A DNA stretch of 64,000 nucleotides from Pachyseris speciosa (taxonomy: Eukaryota > Cnidaria > Anthozoa > Scleractinia > Pachyseridae): the NCBI GenBank assembly GCA_016490735.1, contig JAEMWC010000014.1, forward strand, positions 752,501 to 816,500, written 5' to 3'. A program made the translations under genes and the position numbers. Below, one piece after another: positions 44,380 through 53,709 of the stretch; the stretch's first letter is position 1; each line of letters starts with the position of its first letter. The notes beneath the pieces are model-generated. The model saw nothing but the letters and a program-made list of their open reading frames with translations, was not told the DNA's origin and did no database searches.

Positions 44380-44383
44380 TTAA

Positions 44384-44407
44384 AGTGGTACTACGACCAA
44401 AATTTTG
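44384..44407 (+). repeat. Left terminal inverted repeat of the Kolobok element
   Basis: The first 24 bases pair with 53682-53705 apart from one or two differences (GACCAAAATTTT against GACGAAATTTT). Similarity beyond this is patchy. Confidence 0.88.
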
Positions 44408-44525
44408 CATTTCCATAACTTAACATTTTTGGAAACCTTAACTTATAAATACTTACCCTGCCAAGTTTCATCTCAATATTCCCACGGGAAGTCCGATTAT
44501 TTTATTGTTCTTTTCCGCTTTCGGC

Positions 44526-44616
44526 CGCCCGCCATTACTAAATTCGAAAATTGCCGAGTGTAGCCGAAAGATCTGGCACTAGTTCATCCCTATCGGAAGT
44601 GACGTCATATTCGCAT
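44526..44616 (+). promoter_or_regulatory. Left subterminal promoter-like block
   Basis: CCGCCATTACT about 145 bp from the left end and GTGACGTCATATTCGCA about 215 bp from it are also found, in the same order and similar spacing, at the right end. TGACGTCA is a CRE-type palindrome. The block lies upstream of the transposase start at 44706, so it probably drives that gene. Confidence 0.6.
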
Positions 44617-44705
44617 CACAACAAAGTAACGTGGCTAATTCTCTATGCACTCTTTGAGAAGTGAGAGGTCTTCGCAGGGTTTTTCTTGCGCTGTCACCCT
44701 ACAAA

Positions 44706-47700
44706 ATGCCTCCAAGGCGATGTGTAGTTCAAGACTGCAATCAAGTAAGCGATAAAGAACTGGGAATTTCGATGCACACTTCTCCTGCAAGCGGCAGTGG
44801 ACGTGCCAAATGGAAGAGATTTGTGTGTCAACATAGAAATTTCTTCAATCCGAAGGGCACGTTTGGTGTATGCTCCTTGCATTTCACTAATGACTGTTTC
44901 ACTCGTGCAGTGCACATAAAAGGAACTGAGAGGCGTTTAAAGCCAGGTTCTGTCCCAACTATTTGGAAAAAAGCCACAGTTTCCCTCAGCGGAAGAAGTC
45001 GTCGACGGGTGAGTAAAATTTTCGCACAATCTGTGATTTCGCGTGTCTGTCACTTCTGACGGCTATGATATGCGCCATTCCTTGAACACACGCACATCTA
45101 AATCTGTTTTGGCAACTACTACAAAGGTGCTTTGCTTCGAGTCTGGTTGTTTTATGTTTACAAGCTGTCGGCATTTGCATGCCAATCTTTCATTGCCCCA
45201 CACATTTACCCAAATTGTGTATGCTTACTTTTACTGTGTTTACCACGTGCACCGGTTATCAGGATTATTCCTGATTAAGATTTTACCCAGTTCCACTTCT
45301 CAGCAGTACAATCAGTAATGTGCGAGGTATTTACTGATCACCAACGGGCATATATGATCATGAAGCAAGATGCTACTGAAATGCCATTTCTCTCAGCCAT
45401 CTCAAAAGCTGATGGCTATGTCAACAAAAAATCTTTGAGAACAATGAATTCCTGTCTGCAGGTCTGATCTCCAATTTTCTTTCAATGGTTTATTTCTGAT
45501 GACCTGAATTGAATTTCTAGATGTATCGATTCACAAGTTATTATCTTCCACTCCATATTTGTATAGAATTCTTATAGCTACACTGAAGAGGCAGAACGGT
45601 TACTGTAAATAAAATGAAATTCCTGCACTTGGGTTGAAACAAATGTTGTGTTTTGCAGGAAACAAAATTTAGGTGAATGAATATAGTATTAGTGCAATCT
45701 ATTGATTGTTATGCTGGCTAAATTTTAATGTTAGGTTATCTAACTGATAAAATATAAAACCTTTGCCTGACAGGTAATAAATGACATAATGGTAGACCAG
45801 GAGGCTGAAGTTGTTGAAATGGAGGAGAATGAGGTGCCTCCAGTTCAAGAAATGTTTCAGAGTGATGATGAGTTGCAAGGTGTTAGTCATGAAGTTCAGG
45901 CTTCTGATGTAGTTGAAACAACTGAGGTGATTCCGCTACAGGTGGATGACATGGCCAGCCAAGTAGTTTGTGTGCAGATTCAAGCAGCAAATGTGGTTCA
46001 GACAGAGGGTCCCAATGCAGAGGAAGTTGTCCAGGCAGCTTATCGTGAGAGGGTACAAACAGAGGTGGTGGGGCATGATGAGGTTATGCAGGTGGACGAA
46101 GTCACACAAGCAGACAATTTACTGGGGCTTTCTGACTCGGAGGTAGGTACACACTCATAATAACTATACAAGAATGACAGCATGATAAACTTAGAAAAGT
46201 ACAGTAATTTCTTTTGGTACACAAATTAGTAACAAACAATATTTTGTGATGAGCTGAAGTAATTCTACATGTATGATTGTCCACAATTTCCTTTTTAGAT
46301 GACTGAAAAAAAAAATACATGTGAAGTGTGCAATGCAATGAAGACCGAAATAAGCCAATTAAAGGGCAAGGTTACACGGTTGAAAAATAAACTGGCCACC
46401 AACCAACAGCAGTGGGTTGAAACCTTCAAAGAACTGCAAGAGCAGAATCGCTTGTGTATGGTGAATACTGGTAAGATTGCAGTGATGCTTGACACTATGA
46501 ACAATGTGACAATGATAACAGCACTTATGTGTCAACCCACTGTTACTATGGCTTAGTACTATTACCACATGAATGTCATGAATTCCTGTTCAATGTTGAA
46601 TTTCAACTAATAACTTTCTCATTTTCTTTTAATAATAAATTATTATTCTTTTTGTGTGTGTTTAGCTGTTCAAACTGATGACTATGTTGGAAATGAGCCA
46701 GATATTCCACCTGAAAACCTTGAAAGGTCAAAAGAACCACACACTGTCCACGATCAGGCAGAGGATGATGAAGAGTTGATTAATGGCCACAGTTGGTGCG
46801 ATGATCTGGATGACCCTACATGGAACCCCGAAAAAATCGATAGCGACTATCAACAAATTAAAGATGAAGATGACACCAGCAACACTCATGACAATCCAAG
46901 GTACACATTCACCAGATAATTGTTATAAATGACTCCTTGCAGTTAAAATGCAACTTGATGCCCCAGGCAATTTCTATGGCCACCTCACAAAAGGTAACTG
47001 CAAATTCCCAGTGGGCTGCGCCCATTGTCAACTATCACGAAATAGAAATCTTGTGCTCATAATCTAATTGTTTAATAGAAAACTTAAGATTTACAATATT
47101 TTCTATCTTCTAGGCTAGACATTGAAGGGAAGAATATTAGAGAAGAACCGAAGGGCATAGTGTTCTTGTCCAAGCCGCTGACCCTTTTTCAGTTCTGCCA
47201 CTTGTGCTTCTTTCCAAAGCCTCAAGTTGCTGTCACTCAAATGGGAACGATGTTAACCATTGAATCTGTGTGCAGCAACTGTGGTGAGACCCAGACTTGG
47301 AAGAGCCAGCCGGATCTTCTTGGCAAGTTTCCTGCAGGAAATCTGCTCTTAAGCTTTGCTGTGTTATCTGCTGGAGCATCAATAAGGAAGGTGCTTTTGG
47401 TGTTTCGGCATATGGGTATGTTGGTATATCATGAACCAGCATACTATTATCACCAAAGGCACCTCCTTATACCATCTGTGGTGGCTTTCTGGAGAAAGTA
47501 CCAAAAAAAGTTGTTAGAAAGGCTGAAAGACCAAGAAGTGGTGCTGGCTGGTGATGGCCGCCATGATAGCATGGGACATTCCGCAAAATATGGAACATAC
47601 ACCTTGTTTTGTTGTACCATTGGATTAATCATCCACATTGTACTTGTGCAGGTATGCCATTTTACATTTTGTGCTAAACTAAATATCACTACCAGTTTCA

Positions 47701-50700
47701 GGAACATATTGAACATAACTAGACCTTTTCACCAACATGAAAACCACTGTGGTTTTTTGGGGGTTAATGGCATTCAATTCAGAGGAGAGGATATGTAACC
47801 TGGGGTATCCTGTTATTGCAGCTATTAGACATATGGAATTTAAAGCGTAAGAAAGGTCTTGGTGTTTTGTCCTTATGAGAAGAGGGATGTCTCTAAGGAC
47901 TTGATTAAATGATTGAAAGTCATCTTCACCCAACCCCCCGGCCCAGCACCTGGTTCTCTTGAAAAACTATCATTTGTATTTTTCTTTTGTCTTGGAGACC
48001 CTCCCTTCTACCCGCCAAGAATTGCCCAGCCCCTCTGTTGGGCGGCGAAAGTGAAGCAGTATGAGGATTTTCTGAAATACATGTTTACACAATTTCTTTC
48101 CTTTTCCTTTAACCAAAATTCCATAATTCATTTTCTTCCATTAAAAATTGAATTGAATTGAATTCCATTTCATTGCTTTCAGGCTAATCAGGCAGGAAGC
48201 AGCTCGGCTATGGAGTTCTTAGCCTTTGAAAAGGCATTCACTTTCTTGCTGGGAACAGGGATGATAATTAAGTCATTTATCTCTGACCGACATACCTCAA
48301 TAGCAAAATGGATGAGGGAAGACTGCCCCAAGAAATGTCGTGACCTTGGGAAACCTGTTGTACAACACTTCTTCGACATTTGGCACATTGGAAAAAGTAA
48401 GTTACCTTTGCAAGCAGAATTGTCAGACGAGGTCAAAGTAAACTATAATTTACGTGTATCCTATAAAATTAATGTTATCTGTCATGGAAAGTTAACACCC
48501 TTTACCTGTCAAGTACTGCATACACTAAAAAGTTGATCATGTTTTATACATTACCTATTCACTTCATATTTTGTTTTCTATACAGATATGATAGCAAAAA
48601 CCATATCTGTGTATTGTATGATACAAAGGAAAGCCCACTGACACCCTGACAATTTCCACCTTTATAAAGATATCATTTTATCATCAAATCTTTTCCAGAA
48701 ATACAGAAGGTCTTGACAAAACTAAGCAAAGAGAAAGGATGCGAGATAATTGGCAGGTGGAAGAAAGCCTGTGTGAGGCACTTTTACTGGGCCGTCACAT
48801 CAACCCAAGAACATCTTGGAGAAGTCAAATTGGCAAAATTCCATGCCTTCCTTTCCCACATCCTAAACAAGCACAAAGATCTACCAAACAGATTATTCAA
48901 TGCTTGTGCCCATGGAAACATAACAAACCCACACATATGGATGAACAAAGGTATGACAGATCAGCCTATTTCCACTAGTTTTATTACTCCTGTATAGACC
49001 AAAATCCAAATTACCGGTAATGGCTAAACAATATACATTGATGTTCTAATACTTCTATGATGTGGCCCCTCTGAGGTACACTTTTTGATACAAGGTAAAA
49101 ATATAGCCTGACTATAACAGTGCTTCAAGAGGATTTTTACACAATTTTTATCTTTTGATTATAGTATCAGAGGCATATGAGAAGCTAAATACAGCCCTAA
49201 ACAAGACGACATTGACGAAGGCTATTAAAAAGGCCTCCTCATTAGAGCAGACCAGTTGCCTTGAGGGTTACCATTCAGTGGTGAACCAATTTGCACCCAA
49301 AATGTTTGCCTATTCATATCTTGGCATGCTTTGCAGGTACTTCCATTGTTACTCTATACAATGTAAATGGTACGAGGTTTTGCCCATTATTCAGGTCCAA
49401 CACATTTTACTGGATTGTTCTCACATATATATTTTGTGGCACATATTGGGCTTGTATGGTATAATCTCTTATTAAACACGTCTGTTGTCGCAGAAACCAG
49501 TCAGACACAACTCTAAAGAAATTATGCAACCAGTAGTTAATCTGTGATCACTGTTGAATAAAGTTGTATTGAATTATGTTCCACAGATCACAATCAATTT
49601 CAGTCAAGGTTGAAGGGAAAATTTAAATATTCTTTTGTTTATCCTCCTTGCTCTTTTGTTGATATACATATAGTGCAATTTGAAACAAGTCTCTGGTGTT
49701 AGGTTTGTTTAATTACTTAAATGTCTTTAACAGAACAATCATGGCTGCACTGCACTTCAATTACAACTTGAAGAGAGAGAGCAAAGTTGATGATGAGGGC
49801 CACCCTGTTCTTCATGTGTACTACCCTAAATTCAAAGAAGGGGAAGCAACAGTGAGAGAAGCCAGAGTGTCCTCAAACTATGGTACTTATAAATCTAAAT
49901 ACATAAATGTTCAAAAAAACTAACATGATGCTATTGCCAAGCCATGAACTATCCATACTACTAAAGATTGTTGTTTAAACAGATTATGTAGCCGACATAT
50001 ATGAAACCCTTACCACCACCCCAAGGGCAGAGCTGAAGTTACTGGAGCAAGAACTTAAGCAGGAGGTTCCTGAACCTATTCACAGCATGTTGGGTGAGAA
50101 GCAAGACAAGGAGGAGGCAATAACTAAATACAAGCAAAGAAAAACACTAGAGACAATAATTATTCCTCCTACATGTACAGGTATATACACCATTAAATTA
50201 AGACCAAATTGATTGCAAGGCTGGTACTACGGCAGAAGGGCAAAATTTATTGGTCAATATTTCAACTAGCAGAGCTAGTCTTCTTCAGGGCCAGTACTTG
50301 ATACAAGAAAAATAACGGCTCTAAAATTTGAATATAGATGATCATCTATATTCAAATTTTAGAGCCGTTATTTTTCTTGTATCAAGTACTGGCCCTGAAG
50401 AAGACTAGCTCTGCTAGTTGAAATATTGACCAATAAATTTTGCCCTTCTGCCGTAGTACCAGCCTTGCAATCAATTTGGTTTTACAACACTTAGAGTGAT
50501 GTCTGGTACGAGCATTTCTTGATCAAGAGATCCGGCAATAACAACCCAAGTAGTTTAATTATTCGTTGCGTGGTCTCCTGCATCCAAACGTTGTGTATTA
50601 AATTAAGGGTTGATGAAAAAGGGGAGACATTTTTTATACTTTAACTTGACTAATCAAGATTTTATGTAAGCATACAAGTAACAAAAACTAGTAATTCTAA

Positions 50701-50902
50701 AAAAATTTAGGTAGCAATCAATTTCACCAAAATCTGCTGCTATTGATGTATTTCTTTCTGGTTTGCTATGTCAGAGGAGGAGCTTCATCCAAGAGATGAG
50801 GAGAGGACAGCCAGTGGCAGGAGAATTCCACACTGTCTGAAATGTGGAAAGCCAAAGCAGGGTCACAAGAGAGGCCAATGTCCAGTAGAAAGCAATGAAT
50901 GA
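44706..50902 (+). CDS. Kolobok transposase with N-terminal THAP finger, 966 residues
   Basis: Twelve exons: 44706-45008, 45291-45461, 45774-46142, 46299-46470, 46666-46900, 47114-47651, 48183-48396, 48699-48950, 49165-49336, 49734-49882, 49983-50180, 50775-50902. They sum to 2901 nt, all GT-AG, phases agreeing at every joint, no internal stop. Residues 1-90 form a THAP zinc finger (CVVQDC ... CSLHF). Acidic and Gln-rich parts lie at about 159-281 and a coiled coil at about 282-340. The catalytic region has AGDGRHDSMGHSAKYGTY (Asp about 564), ISDRH (Asp about 631), FDIWHIGK, and LEGYHS (Glu about 785). A Cys/His cluster (CLKCGKPKQGHKRGQC) ends the protein. THAP fingers usually bind the transposon ends, and the DDE core cuts at TTAA. 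Family assigned by motifs and TTAA duplication. Confidence 0.88.
50203..50480. repeat. 278-bp perfect palindrome
   Basis: The two 139-base arms, meeting at 50341/50342 (GATGA|TCATC), are exact reverse complements as read by eye. The arms contain GAAGAAGACTAGCTCTGCTA and TTGAAATATTGACCAATAAA, which resemble the ends of Penelope-like elements. It lies in intron 11 of the Kolobok transposase gene. No loop is present. Confidence 0.95.
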
Positions 50903-51441
50903 TGTAAAAAAAAAAAAAGATTTTTTTAACTTTCTGTAGCAAGATGCTTTTATAATTTTAAAAAAGGGCTTCTCCCTGAATTTGGTTCTTTAGTTTCGGT
51001 TATTGTTATATGATGGAAGTTCAATAATCATCTGTTAGTCTAAGATTAAGATCTCTCATTAAAATTCCATGATGACAAAAGGAGAAAAATTTTATTGTCA
51101 ATTTGTTCACTTTGTTTGTTATACACAGCCAAGTCTTGAACTCAGACAGTGAAAATTAAAATTAATAATGGTAATGTATTGTTGTGTTTTTGTTTATTGC
51201 ATTACACTTAGACAGATTCTGTTTTGTTAATGTGTAGTCCCAGAAAAATTCTGTACTTCCCCATGGAAGGATTTCAATTTCCTTGGGACAGGGTGGTTGA
51301 AATGTATCAAGTGTAACTGGAATTTCCAAAAGGGGAAGTGAACTTTAAAAGAAATCCCTTCCGTTGGAGAGGTTTGAATATTTGGTGGAACAACACATGC
51401 ATTGGTCGGAGGTCTGACTCACAGTAAGGAACTATGAGCTT
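50903..51441. other. Space between the two convergent Kolobok genes
   Basis: AT-rich sequence with no coding signal; it should hold the 3' UTRs of both genes. An AATAAT-rich stretch near 51160-51200 and an A-run at 50906-50918 are present, but no certain poly(A) signal can be assigned. Confidence 0.5.
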
Positions 51442-53399
51442 CTAATCATCATCTTCAAAACCATGGTATTGCCCATTCTCGTCTGGGAATTGCTTTCTTA
51501 TTTTAGCATATGCACAACATGGTAGAGGATAGCGTCGTGAGCGGCCAATATGCTCCCAGAGTAGCCTGGTGAACTGCCGGTATGCCACTGATCTGAAGAA
51601 CCTAACAAAACAAGATTTGAAGAATAATTATAGGCAAGCATTTTGGTCCCTTTCTGCCTAAAATAACTAAAGTTTAAACGAGGAATGAAAGAAATAACAA
51701 AGAATACTAAACTGACTAATCCCCACAGTTGGATAGCCGAATGGTAGCTGGAGTATTCACTAAATACACCTGTAACTTACCCTGTAAGAGCCTTAAGTTC
51801 TTCACAAGGTACAGTAATGGCCCACGTATGAGAACCTGCATTTTTCGATGTAGCCTAAATAGGTTCTTATATAAATGTTACTTAAAGCAAATTTAGGCAC
51901 AGGCAGCCCAGACGTCAAATACGATTAATATGTGACATTCTGCTTTTAGCTGTTTATAAGACAATGTATGAGAATGCTTTGAAAAGTGCTCTAAATGCTA
52001 CATGTAGATATCAATTTAATAAAAGTGGCTTACCATATGTTTGCATAATGTGACGTATTAATCGTATTCGACATCTGGGCTGCATGTGATTTAGGCTACC
52101 AAGGTTCTTAAAATAGGTTCTTATATTTTCATATGAATTCCATCTGAATATACTATATATATTATAAATATCATCTCATAATAAAGTATAAATCATTTAT
52201 TTGTACCATAGAGCAATGCCTATAGGCAGTTCAGTGCAGGTACAGCATAATTATGTCCTTTACAAAACATAACAAAGAAACTCAGTAGAGTACATACTTG
52301 CAAGTACTTGGGGAATTATTTGAATGGCAAACACACTAGACATAGAACATGGTAATGTCAAGTTACTTTTAAATAGATGATCTTAATTCAGCAGTCTCTA
52401 CCTATGCACTTTTACAGCAACCCCACTAATAAGAACCTAACTTAAAATTTTAGGCTAAATAGGTTCTTATGTGGTGGGGCTTAAAATGAAAATTTTAGCC
52501 TAACATGTTCTTAAAACCCAGGTTCTTATACGTGGGCTATTACTGTATTTGTGTTTCTAAAAGGTAGTCAAAGTAACAATAATCAGTTGAAAATGGAAAT
52601 AATGATTATGCCTTGGTAGCTATAGTGCACTAAAAATCTGTATGCTTACATAAAAAGCTGGGGATCCCCTGTTGATGTATTCAGTGCAAAACAAATACTA
52701 GGTAACTTACTCTGCTTCCGTTCTTCGTCCTTGAGTGAACATTGTACGGTAGGATTTCCCAGACTTAGTCTTGAGACTTAAAGAAGCAATTTGCAAGACG
52801 TGATTGTTCAGGCAAACATCTTGAAATCCAGGATGAAGGGTGATACATCGACTTCGATCGCCATATTGCTCCATAACCTCACCACAACGATCGATCTCCT
52901 GACAGCATTGGCACTCTTCTGCTTTTGTGCTAAATTCAACCGAACAGTTGGAACAGGAGCACCTTGATAAAAAAAAAAATTGGCTTCAGGTTATACTAGA
53001 AAGCTAAAAAAACTGGCAACTACAGAGAATGTTTCTCAAAACCGTCATAGCAACCGAGTAAACACTCTGTAAACAAAACACGATACTGAAAACCAACATC
53101 CAAACTTACTACAAAACAGCGACAGGCTTCTTAAATAAACTTAAAATTCCAATTATCAGTTGTTCATCATACCATGCATCAACTGCTACTTCTTGAGTGA
53201 ATCTTTTCTGGTATTCCCGCTCTAAGTCAGCTTCTTGAGCCATTCTTGCATCCTGTTCCGCTGCTTCTTGTTCGGTGGCTAGGGGTTCCAAATCCTCATC
53301 ATATGGAACGAAGCCGCCAGTTTCAACTATTTCTTCATTGTAACTTTCTTCGAATTCACTTCCAGATGAACTGGAGGAAGAATTCGACGACGAATACAT
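51442..53399 (-). CDS. P2X7-tail-like zinc-binding protein, 212 residues, inside the Kolobok element
   Basis: Exons 53399-53173, 52962-52711 and 51601-51442 (639 nt) join with canonical sites and no stops. Exon 1 is serine- and acid-rich (a run of Ser at residues 3-12). Exon 2, starting at the split Trp codon, has WCSCSNCSVEF, ECQCCQEIDRC, then CITLHPGFQDVCLNNHVLQ. Exon 3 has SVAYRQFTRLLWEHIG, LPCCAYAKIRKQFP and GQYHGF before the stop. These match the cytoplasmic cysteine-rich 'ballast' domain of vertebrate P2X7 (its LP-x-CC ... IRKEFP ... GQY-x-GF end). There is no channel part. Role unknown; zinc binding is likely from the family. The 5' end faces the right terminal repeat. Confidence 0.88.
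51812..52545. mobile_element. Foldback MITE with TA target site in an intron of the P2X7-tail-like gene
   Basis: Inverted ends CAGTAATGGCCCACGTATGA and CAGTAATAGCCCACGTATAA (both followed by GAACCTG) are each preceded by TA (51810-51811, 52546-52547). Internal parts are inverted too: GACGTCAAATACGATTAATA against TATTAATCGTATTCGACATC, and many copies of AGGTTCTTAT. It sits wholly in intron 2, so the coding exons are untouched. Confidence 0.8.
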
Positions 53400-53462
53400 C
53401 TCCTAAACTGTGTTGCATTCCCTCTGTATTCTCTCTATGAACACACGAAGAGCGAGGCGAAT

Positions 53463-53554
53463 GTGCGCATATGACGTCACGTACGCACTTCTGAGTAAAT
53501 CCGCTTTTTAGTAATGTCGCCGGCTCACTTTTGCGGAATGAGTAATGGCGGACG
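53463..53554 (-). promoter_or_regulatory. Right subterminal promoter-like block
   Basis: On the minus strand CCGCCATTACT (about 151 bp from the right end) and GTGACGTCATATGCGCA (about 225 bp) precede the ATG at 53399. They mirror the left block, suggesting one ancestral inverted-repeat promoter at both ends. Confidence 0.6.
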
Positions 53555-53681
53555 GGTTTTTTGCGCTTTTCGACCCACTATTTCACAGCTTATTTTACTC
53601 GCATCGTTCTAAATTCTTGTACACTAAGTTTTTATGAACATATTGACTAAATTTACGTTGAAAAAGGCATAAAAGAAAGAC

Positions 53682-53705
53682 CGAAAATTTCGTCGTAGTA
53701 CCACT
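53682..53705 (-). repeat. Right terminal inverted repeat of the Kolobok element
   Basis: Reverse complement begins AGTGGTACTACGACG, matching the left end, and is followed by TTAA. Confidence 0.88.
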
Positions 53706-53709
53706 TTAA

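Follow-up and report, generated by a model that had tools for sequence, protein, structure and literature searches.

A Kol0-type Kolobok transposon with convergent transposase and KolX genes in the coral Pachyseris speciosa

We analyzed 64,000 nucleotides (nt) of the genome of the coral Pachyseris speciosa (the window; positions 752,501 to 816,500 of contig JAEMWC010000014.1, assembly GCA_016490735.1) and identified a single mobile unit at window positions 44384-53705. It is flanked by TTAA on both sides, has 22-nt terminal inverted repeats and encodes two convergent spliced genes, one for a Kolobok transposase and one for KolX, a protein resembling the tail of P2X7. We conclude, with a probability of about 0.95, that it is a Kol0-type Kolobok DNA transposon, complete and recently mobile. 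An earlier reading of the sequence (the original prediction) had proposed that the ends, the TTAA duplications and both genes form one mobile unit, and this is borne out by near-identical TTAA-flanked copies with unrelated flanks. The Kolobok identity that it assigned is upheld by the TTAA sites, AG ends, THAP domain and D-D-DxxH-E core. It also regarded a regular second gene as a new component; however, the originally reported Kolobok families (Kol0) are described as encoding two proteins, the second named KolX (Kojima and Bao 2022, PMC9587614). The pairing of a transposase with a P2X7-tail-like protein is already known as Kol0, and the window element is a new, well-preserved, intron-rich family.

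According to the same paper, KolX adopts the ballast fold of the P2X7 tail, P2X7 arose through fusion with KolX (the likely source of its tail), and Kol0 hosts include vertebrates, annelids, cnidarians and sponges (PMC9587614). An earlier account of the P2X7 ballast domain had covered its occurrence across animals; the available text contains no word with the stem "transpos" (PMC7016195). In the literature searched, the name KolX is confined to one paper, and a search for Kolobok in corals returned no use of the word Kolobok among the matches listed.

Copies and ends of the element

Searches of the P. speciosa genome (984 Mb in 2368 contigs) identified two sister copies, C14:710658-719981 (99.8% identical) and C19:1959034-1968728 (99.5% identical), both flanked by TTAA. 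Their similarity to the window ends no more than three bases from the TTAA, and the flanks are unrelated. The 9.3-kb unit, including both genes, is thus present at three places in this genome, and the occurrence of near-identical copies at separate TTAA sites indicates that the two genes moved together, and recently. The original prediction had called for a search for further copies with the same ends; in addition to these near-identical sisters, diverged copies were found. The C14 copy has a KolX coding sequence identical to that of the window, and its transposase exon 3 differs in length by 1 nt. In the C19 copy, transposase intron 4 is 372 bases longer, and the coding exons differ at 10 transposase positions (8 amino-acid changing) and one KolX position (also changing). 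This exon comparison was used in place of the sister-copy rows of the substitution-rate analysis below, which were dropped because of contamination at intron edges.

The target site duplications lie at 44380..44383 and 53706..53709, and TTAA also surrounds the sister copies. The left terminal repeat (44384..44405, plus strand) begins with AG and the right (53684..53705, minus strand) ends with CT; both were recognized as an inverted-repeat pair and in the alignment of element ends. Including the TTAA, the repeat is 26 nt long and 92% complementary (44380-53709). When the end 18-mer TTAAAGTGGTACTACGAC was sought across the window with up to 3 mismatches allowed, it was found in two places, the two element ends, both exact (0.03 expected by chance). 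TTAA followed by an AG start was seen in 15 of 15 ends examined (7 left and 8 right, with the three sister copies included), and the AG...CT form is the 5'-RR / YY-3' pattern of the Kolobok superfamily. A piggyBac identity was rejected: no piggyBac model appeared in the Pfam scan, and the ends begin with AG, whereas piggyBac ends are not 5'-RR.

Further inside, the motifs CCGCCATTACT (44529..44539) and GTGACGTCATA (44599..44609) on the plus strand are mirrored at similar depth in the right end by GTGACGTCATA (53470..53480) and CCGCCATTACT (53541..53551) on the minus strand, all located by end alignment. Exact TGACGTCA is present in 10/15 ends, and the alignment shows near-matches in the others. 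Judged from sequence, the mirrored motifs may be promoter elements of both genes, or transposase sites. They bear a possible resemblance to CRE and YY1 sites.

The two genes and their products

The transposase gene occupies 44706..50902 on the plus strand, with 11 exons (44706-45008, 45774-46142, 46299-46470, 46666-46900, 47114-47651, 48183-48396, 48699-48950, 49165-49336, 49734-49882, 49983-50180 and 50775-50902) joined at GT-AG borders into an open frame of 2730 nt, or 909 amino acids. Its ATG is 322 nt inside the left end, as originally predicted. The predicted total of 2901 coding bases is not upheld, because no phase-compatible GT-AG cassette exon of the missing 171 nt was found in the transposase introns and the closest full-length relative, Montipora capricornis protein P0042, has 912 residues (99% coverage at 52% identity). 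A THAP domain was identified at residues 6-86 (Pfam scan, 2.9e-10). D507, D574 and E728 form the DDE triad, and D604-x-x-H607 is the C/DxxH motif expected in Kolobok between the second D and the E; an alignment with 14 relatives shows little or no variation at these catalytic residues. The H2CH motif is present as H664/H669/C680/H682, so that the THAP plus H2CH scheme given for Kolobok transposases (PMC6004289) is complete.

Transposase intron 10 contains a near-perfect palindrome (50199-50484) with two 143-nt arms that are 99% complementary and have no spacer. The alignments with both sister copies include it, and it thus predates their spread. Elsewhere in the genome, at C821:297701-297834, 44 residues at the end of a transposase show 96-100% identity to the Montipora protein P0042.

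The KolX gene lies at 51442..53399 on the minus strand, convergent with the transposase, and has three exons (53399-53173, 52962-52711 and 51601-51442) with GT-AG borders and an open frame of 639 nt (212 amino acids). The coding length agrees exactly with the original prediction, as does the position of the ATG, which at 53399 lies 306 nt from the right end. Candidate poly(A) signals of the transposase and KolX genes are interleaved (51058 and 51155 on the plus strand, 51198 and 51096 on the minus strand). In KolX intron 2, 35-nt inverted repeats that are 89% complementary and 668 nt apart (51810-52547) mark what looks like a small nested non-autonomous element.

Several lines of evidence support the predicted resemblance of the second protein to the P2X7 tail. 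The Pfam scan identified P2RX7_C (PF20478, 6.1e-11) at residues 45-209, the only model above its cut-off, and found no P2X channel domain. An acidic, serine-rich stretch of 75 residues precedes the cysteine-rich ballast domain. The protein has eleven cysteines, including CxCxxC, CC and CC, mostly kept in relatives, among which the seven zinc ligands of the ballast domain may have counterparts. The single KolX sequence found no match in the PDB at 0.001 and a family profile was needed: a profile of 21 relatives matched only P2X7 chains at E up to 0.01 (best 1.5e-5), covering P2X7 residues 462-592 (PDB 9e3m, 6u9v and others). Ranks 1-10 were all P2X7 in both fold comparisons made with a model of the KolX relative P0002, the best matches being to the ballast domain. 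Together, the Pfam match, the profile and this fold identify the P2X7-type ballast domain that characterizes Kol0, in a protein without the channel part. Among the residues reported to contact guanosine diphosphate (GDP) in rat P2X7 (R546, H547, R574, R578 and K583; PMC7016195), the profile alignment indicates that R546 and R578 are kept in KolX and that H547, R574 and K583 are not; most of this contact set is thus missing.

Pairing, constraint and diversity of KolX across the genome

A convergent Kolobok transposase match was identified at 30/32 KolX-type loci that we read, which were not a random sample but a selection of best matches, copies with left ends and a few distant ones. Matches at C57 (E 1.5e-4) and C313 (E 3.6e-4) are weak. 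The original prediction had held that P2X7-tail-like genes lying away from any such element would count against it; the pairing stands, and the two loci without a partner, C45 and C393, are both decayed. It had also asked whether most full-length copies contain the second gene. At least a piece of KolX is held by 9/9 copies for which both ends were found (C207 by coordinates only), with only a remnant in C595, which retains just 28 residues, and in C2:1185569. A two-ended copy at C2:2597364-2601104 (3.7 kb) includes the THAP exon, transposase parts and all three KolX exons and lacks the catalytic core; it is a deletion derivative still carrying KolX sequence.

Starting from the ends, a listed KolX lies within 30 kb of 16/39 left-end matches, convergent in every case, and C595 adds one. 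No KolX and no complete transposase were found in the stretches read at the left-end matches of C588, C17, C1566, C1527 and C788; of the remaining 17/39 matches, reading covered just the C393 end and its KolX piece. At odds with a strict pairing rule, a same-strand KolX piece lies 6-8 kb from each of six left-end-like matches (C788:322387, C393:356929, C393:90111, and others on C1511, C1677 and C106). C788 and C393 have common sequence upstream of the end, and left ends of this type look like decayed pieces riding within a larger repeat.

We also compared lists of 132 transposase loci (150/320 candidates scored) and 106 KolX loci (150/536 scored) within 12 kb. This gave 47 convergent pairs, one same-strand pair and one divergent pair, where about 0.34 would be expected by chance, and left 83/132 transposase loci without a listed partner. 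The predominance of convergent pairs here and at the loci read agrees with the orientation originally predicted. Convergent pairs make up 16/17 of the transposases at >=74% similarity, 2/6 at 54-73%, 6/53 at 44-53% and 23/56 at 33-43%. A second KolX query (150/551 scored) added 13 pairs by coordinates, all convergent, and reading the DNA of C159, unpaired in the lists, revealed a diverged three-exon KolX. Convergent KolX is therefore assigned to at least 61/132 listed transposase loci, and 69/132 are without an assigned partner, some of which may truly lack KolX. One KolX match with a very long open frame was discarded, as it proved to be a run of N.

The ratio of nonsynonymous to synonymous substitution rates (dN/dS), whose conservation the original prediction proposed to test for the second gene, is low for KolX (0.07-0.14 against 7 relatives) and for the transposase (0.06-0.11 against 9 relatives, the lowest value coming from a short C588 stretch); only the direction of these values is safe, as silent sites approach saturation and stops interrupt the relatives in places. 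Codons were taken from stretches of >=45% local identity and stop codons were dropped, and both choices lower dN. KolX and transposase distances correlate over 8 copies (Mantel r 0.78, 5/5000 permutations).

The genome holds two forms of this system, the intron-rich one with THAP and an intron-poor, single-exon one. Intron-rich relatives seem to share the exon borders of the window element, as suggested by tblastn break points. In the distant form, a single-exon KolX of 130-144 residues (2e-13 to P2RX7_C) faces a single-exon transposase, 554-572 residues long where its frame is intact; loci of this form are C470, C795, C1165, C171, C627, C858 and C1275, with the frame broken in some. At C57:1315565-1316269 (minus strand) we observed a 234-residue open frame whose end, as a single sequence, matches P2X7 (9e3q) at E 3.4e-17, far better than the window KolX does, and which a weak convergent transposase piece adjoins. 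It is possibly a third KolX lineage, closer to the P2X7 tail.

The window element shares with published Kol0 elements (Kolobok-1_XT and relatives) a DDD/E transposase, a KolX with the P2X7 ballast domain, TTAA duplications, 5'-RR ends and the known use of cnidarian hosts (PMC9587614). It differs as a new family with 11 transposase and 3 KolX exons, and it is placed in Kol0 by its KolX. Xenopus Kolobok (XKol) also has THAP, DDE and H2CH motifs, TTAA sites, AG ends and full-length elements of about 7-14 kb (9.3 kb here), but its coding part is described as a long uninterrupted frame, whereas the window genes are spliced, and KolX is not mentioned in the available text (PMC6004289). KolobokD, KolobokE, KolobokP and KolobokH likewise pair a Kolobok transposase with an additional protein or domain specific to the lineage; theirs are reported to be nucleases or a helicase rather than KolX (PMC9587614). 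RAG1-like/RAG2-like transposons also place a catalytic and a second gene convergently in one element, but the proteins are unrelated and the likeness is an analogy of layout (PMC7204232).

Role of KolX and implications

We suggest that the transposase would bind the element ends and then cut and paste at TTAA, with KolX as a dedicated zinc-binding partner or regulator working alongside it, and that the mirrored subterminal motifs could serve as promoters of the two genes or as sites for the transposase. Taken as a whole, this explanation of a Kol0 element, a transposase acting at its ends and at TTAA and KolX as zinc-binding partner or regulator is, in our judgment, quite likely to be correct. 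For KolX itself we favor, by inference, the role of a zinc-binding accessory factor of the transposase; the chances that it acts positively on transposition are about even. A stronger version, in which KolX is an obligatory zinc-dependent partner in the assembly or licensing of transposition, kept convergent in very different Kol0 families of this one genome (intron-rich ones with THAP and short ones with a single exon), is unlikely.

The same layout could reflect a self-limiting regulator, expressed from the opposite end, that damps transposase activity or expression, perhaps via overlapping convergent 3' ends. The convergent arrangement at nearly all loci read and the interleaved poly(A) signals are consistent with this, and nothing speaks directly against it; the retention of KolX with low dN/dS across families suits a regulator and a helper equally. 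We regard damping as possible but doubtful. It is more improbable still that the target of KolX is the host, for instance to counter silencing, rather than the transposition reaction: room for this comes from the lack of functional data in the available text of PMC9587614 (no functional test of KolX was found there), while no host target or motif turned up (no dedicated test was made).

Explanations without a dedicated partner fare far worse. As transposons are known to capture host genes, the second gene could in principle be a host fragment picked up by chance in a single element. This is contradicted by the pairing census, with convergence in both intron-rich and single-exon families, and also by the correlated divergence of the two genes and by the prior publication of the second gene as KolX (PMC9587614); we consider it very improbable. 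The chance that the second gene is an ordinary host P2X receptor gene beside a transposase is smaller again and practically negligible. Two Acropora muricata relatives of KolX, P0003 and P0006, are named P2X purinoceptor 7-like, but the Pfam scan of the window protein revealed no P2X channel domain, and this reading is contradicted by the three mobile copies that carry the gene inside their ends.

The three near-identical two-gene Kol0 copies, with both frames open in that of the window, provide material for assaying KolX. The element agrees with the published view that the P2X7 tail derives from a transposon protein (PMC9587614); if KolX were an obligatory partner, the P2X7 tail would owe a protein-assembly module to a transposon. 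As the two Acropora muricata entries illustrate, the name P2X purinoceptor 7-like in corals can belong to a gene related to one from a transposon. Apparent purinergic or immune gene-family expansions may therefore include some transposons in their counts (compare the expansion reported in PMC11700175).
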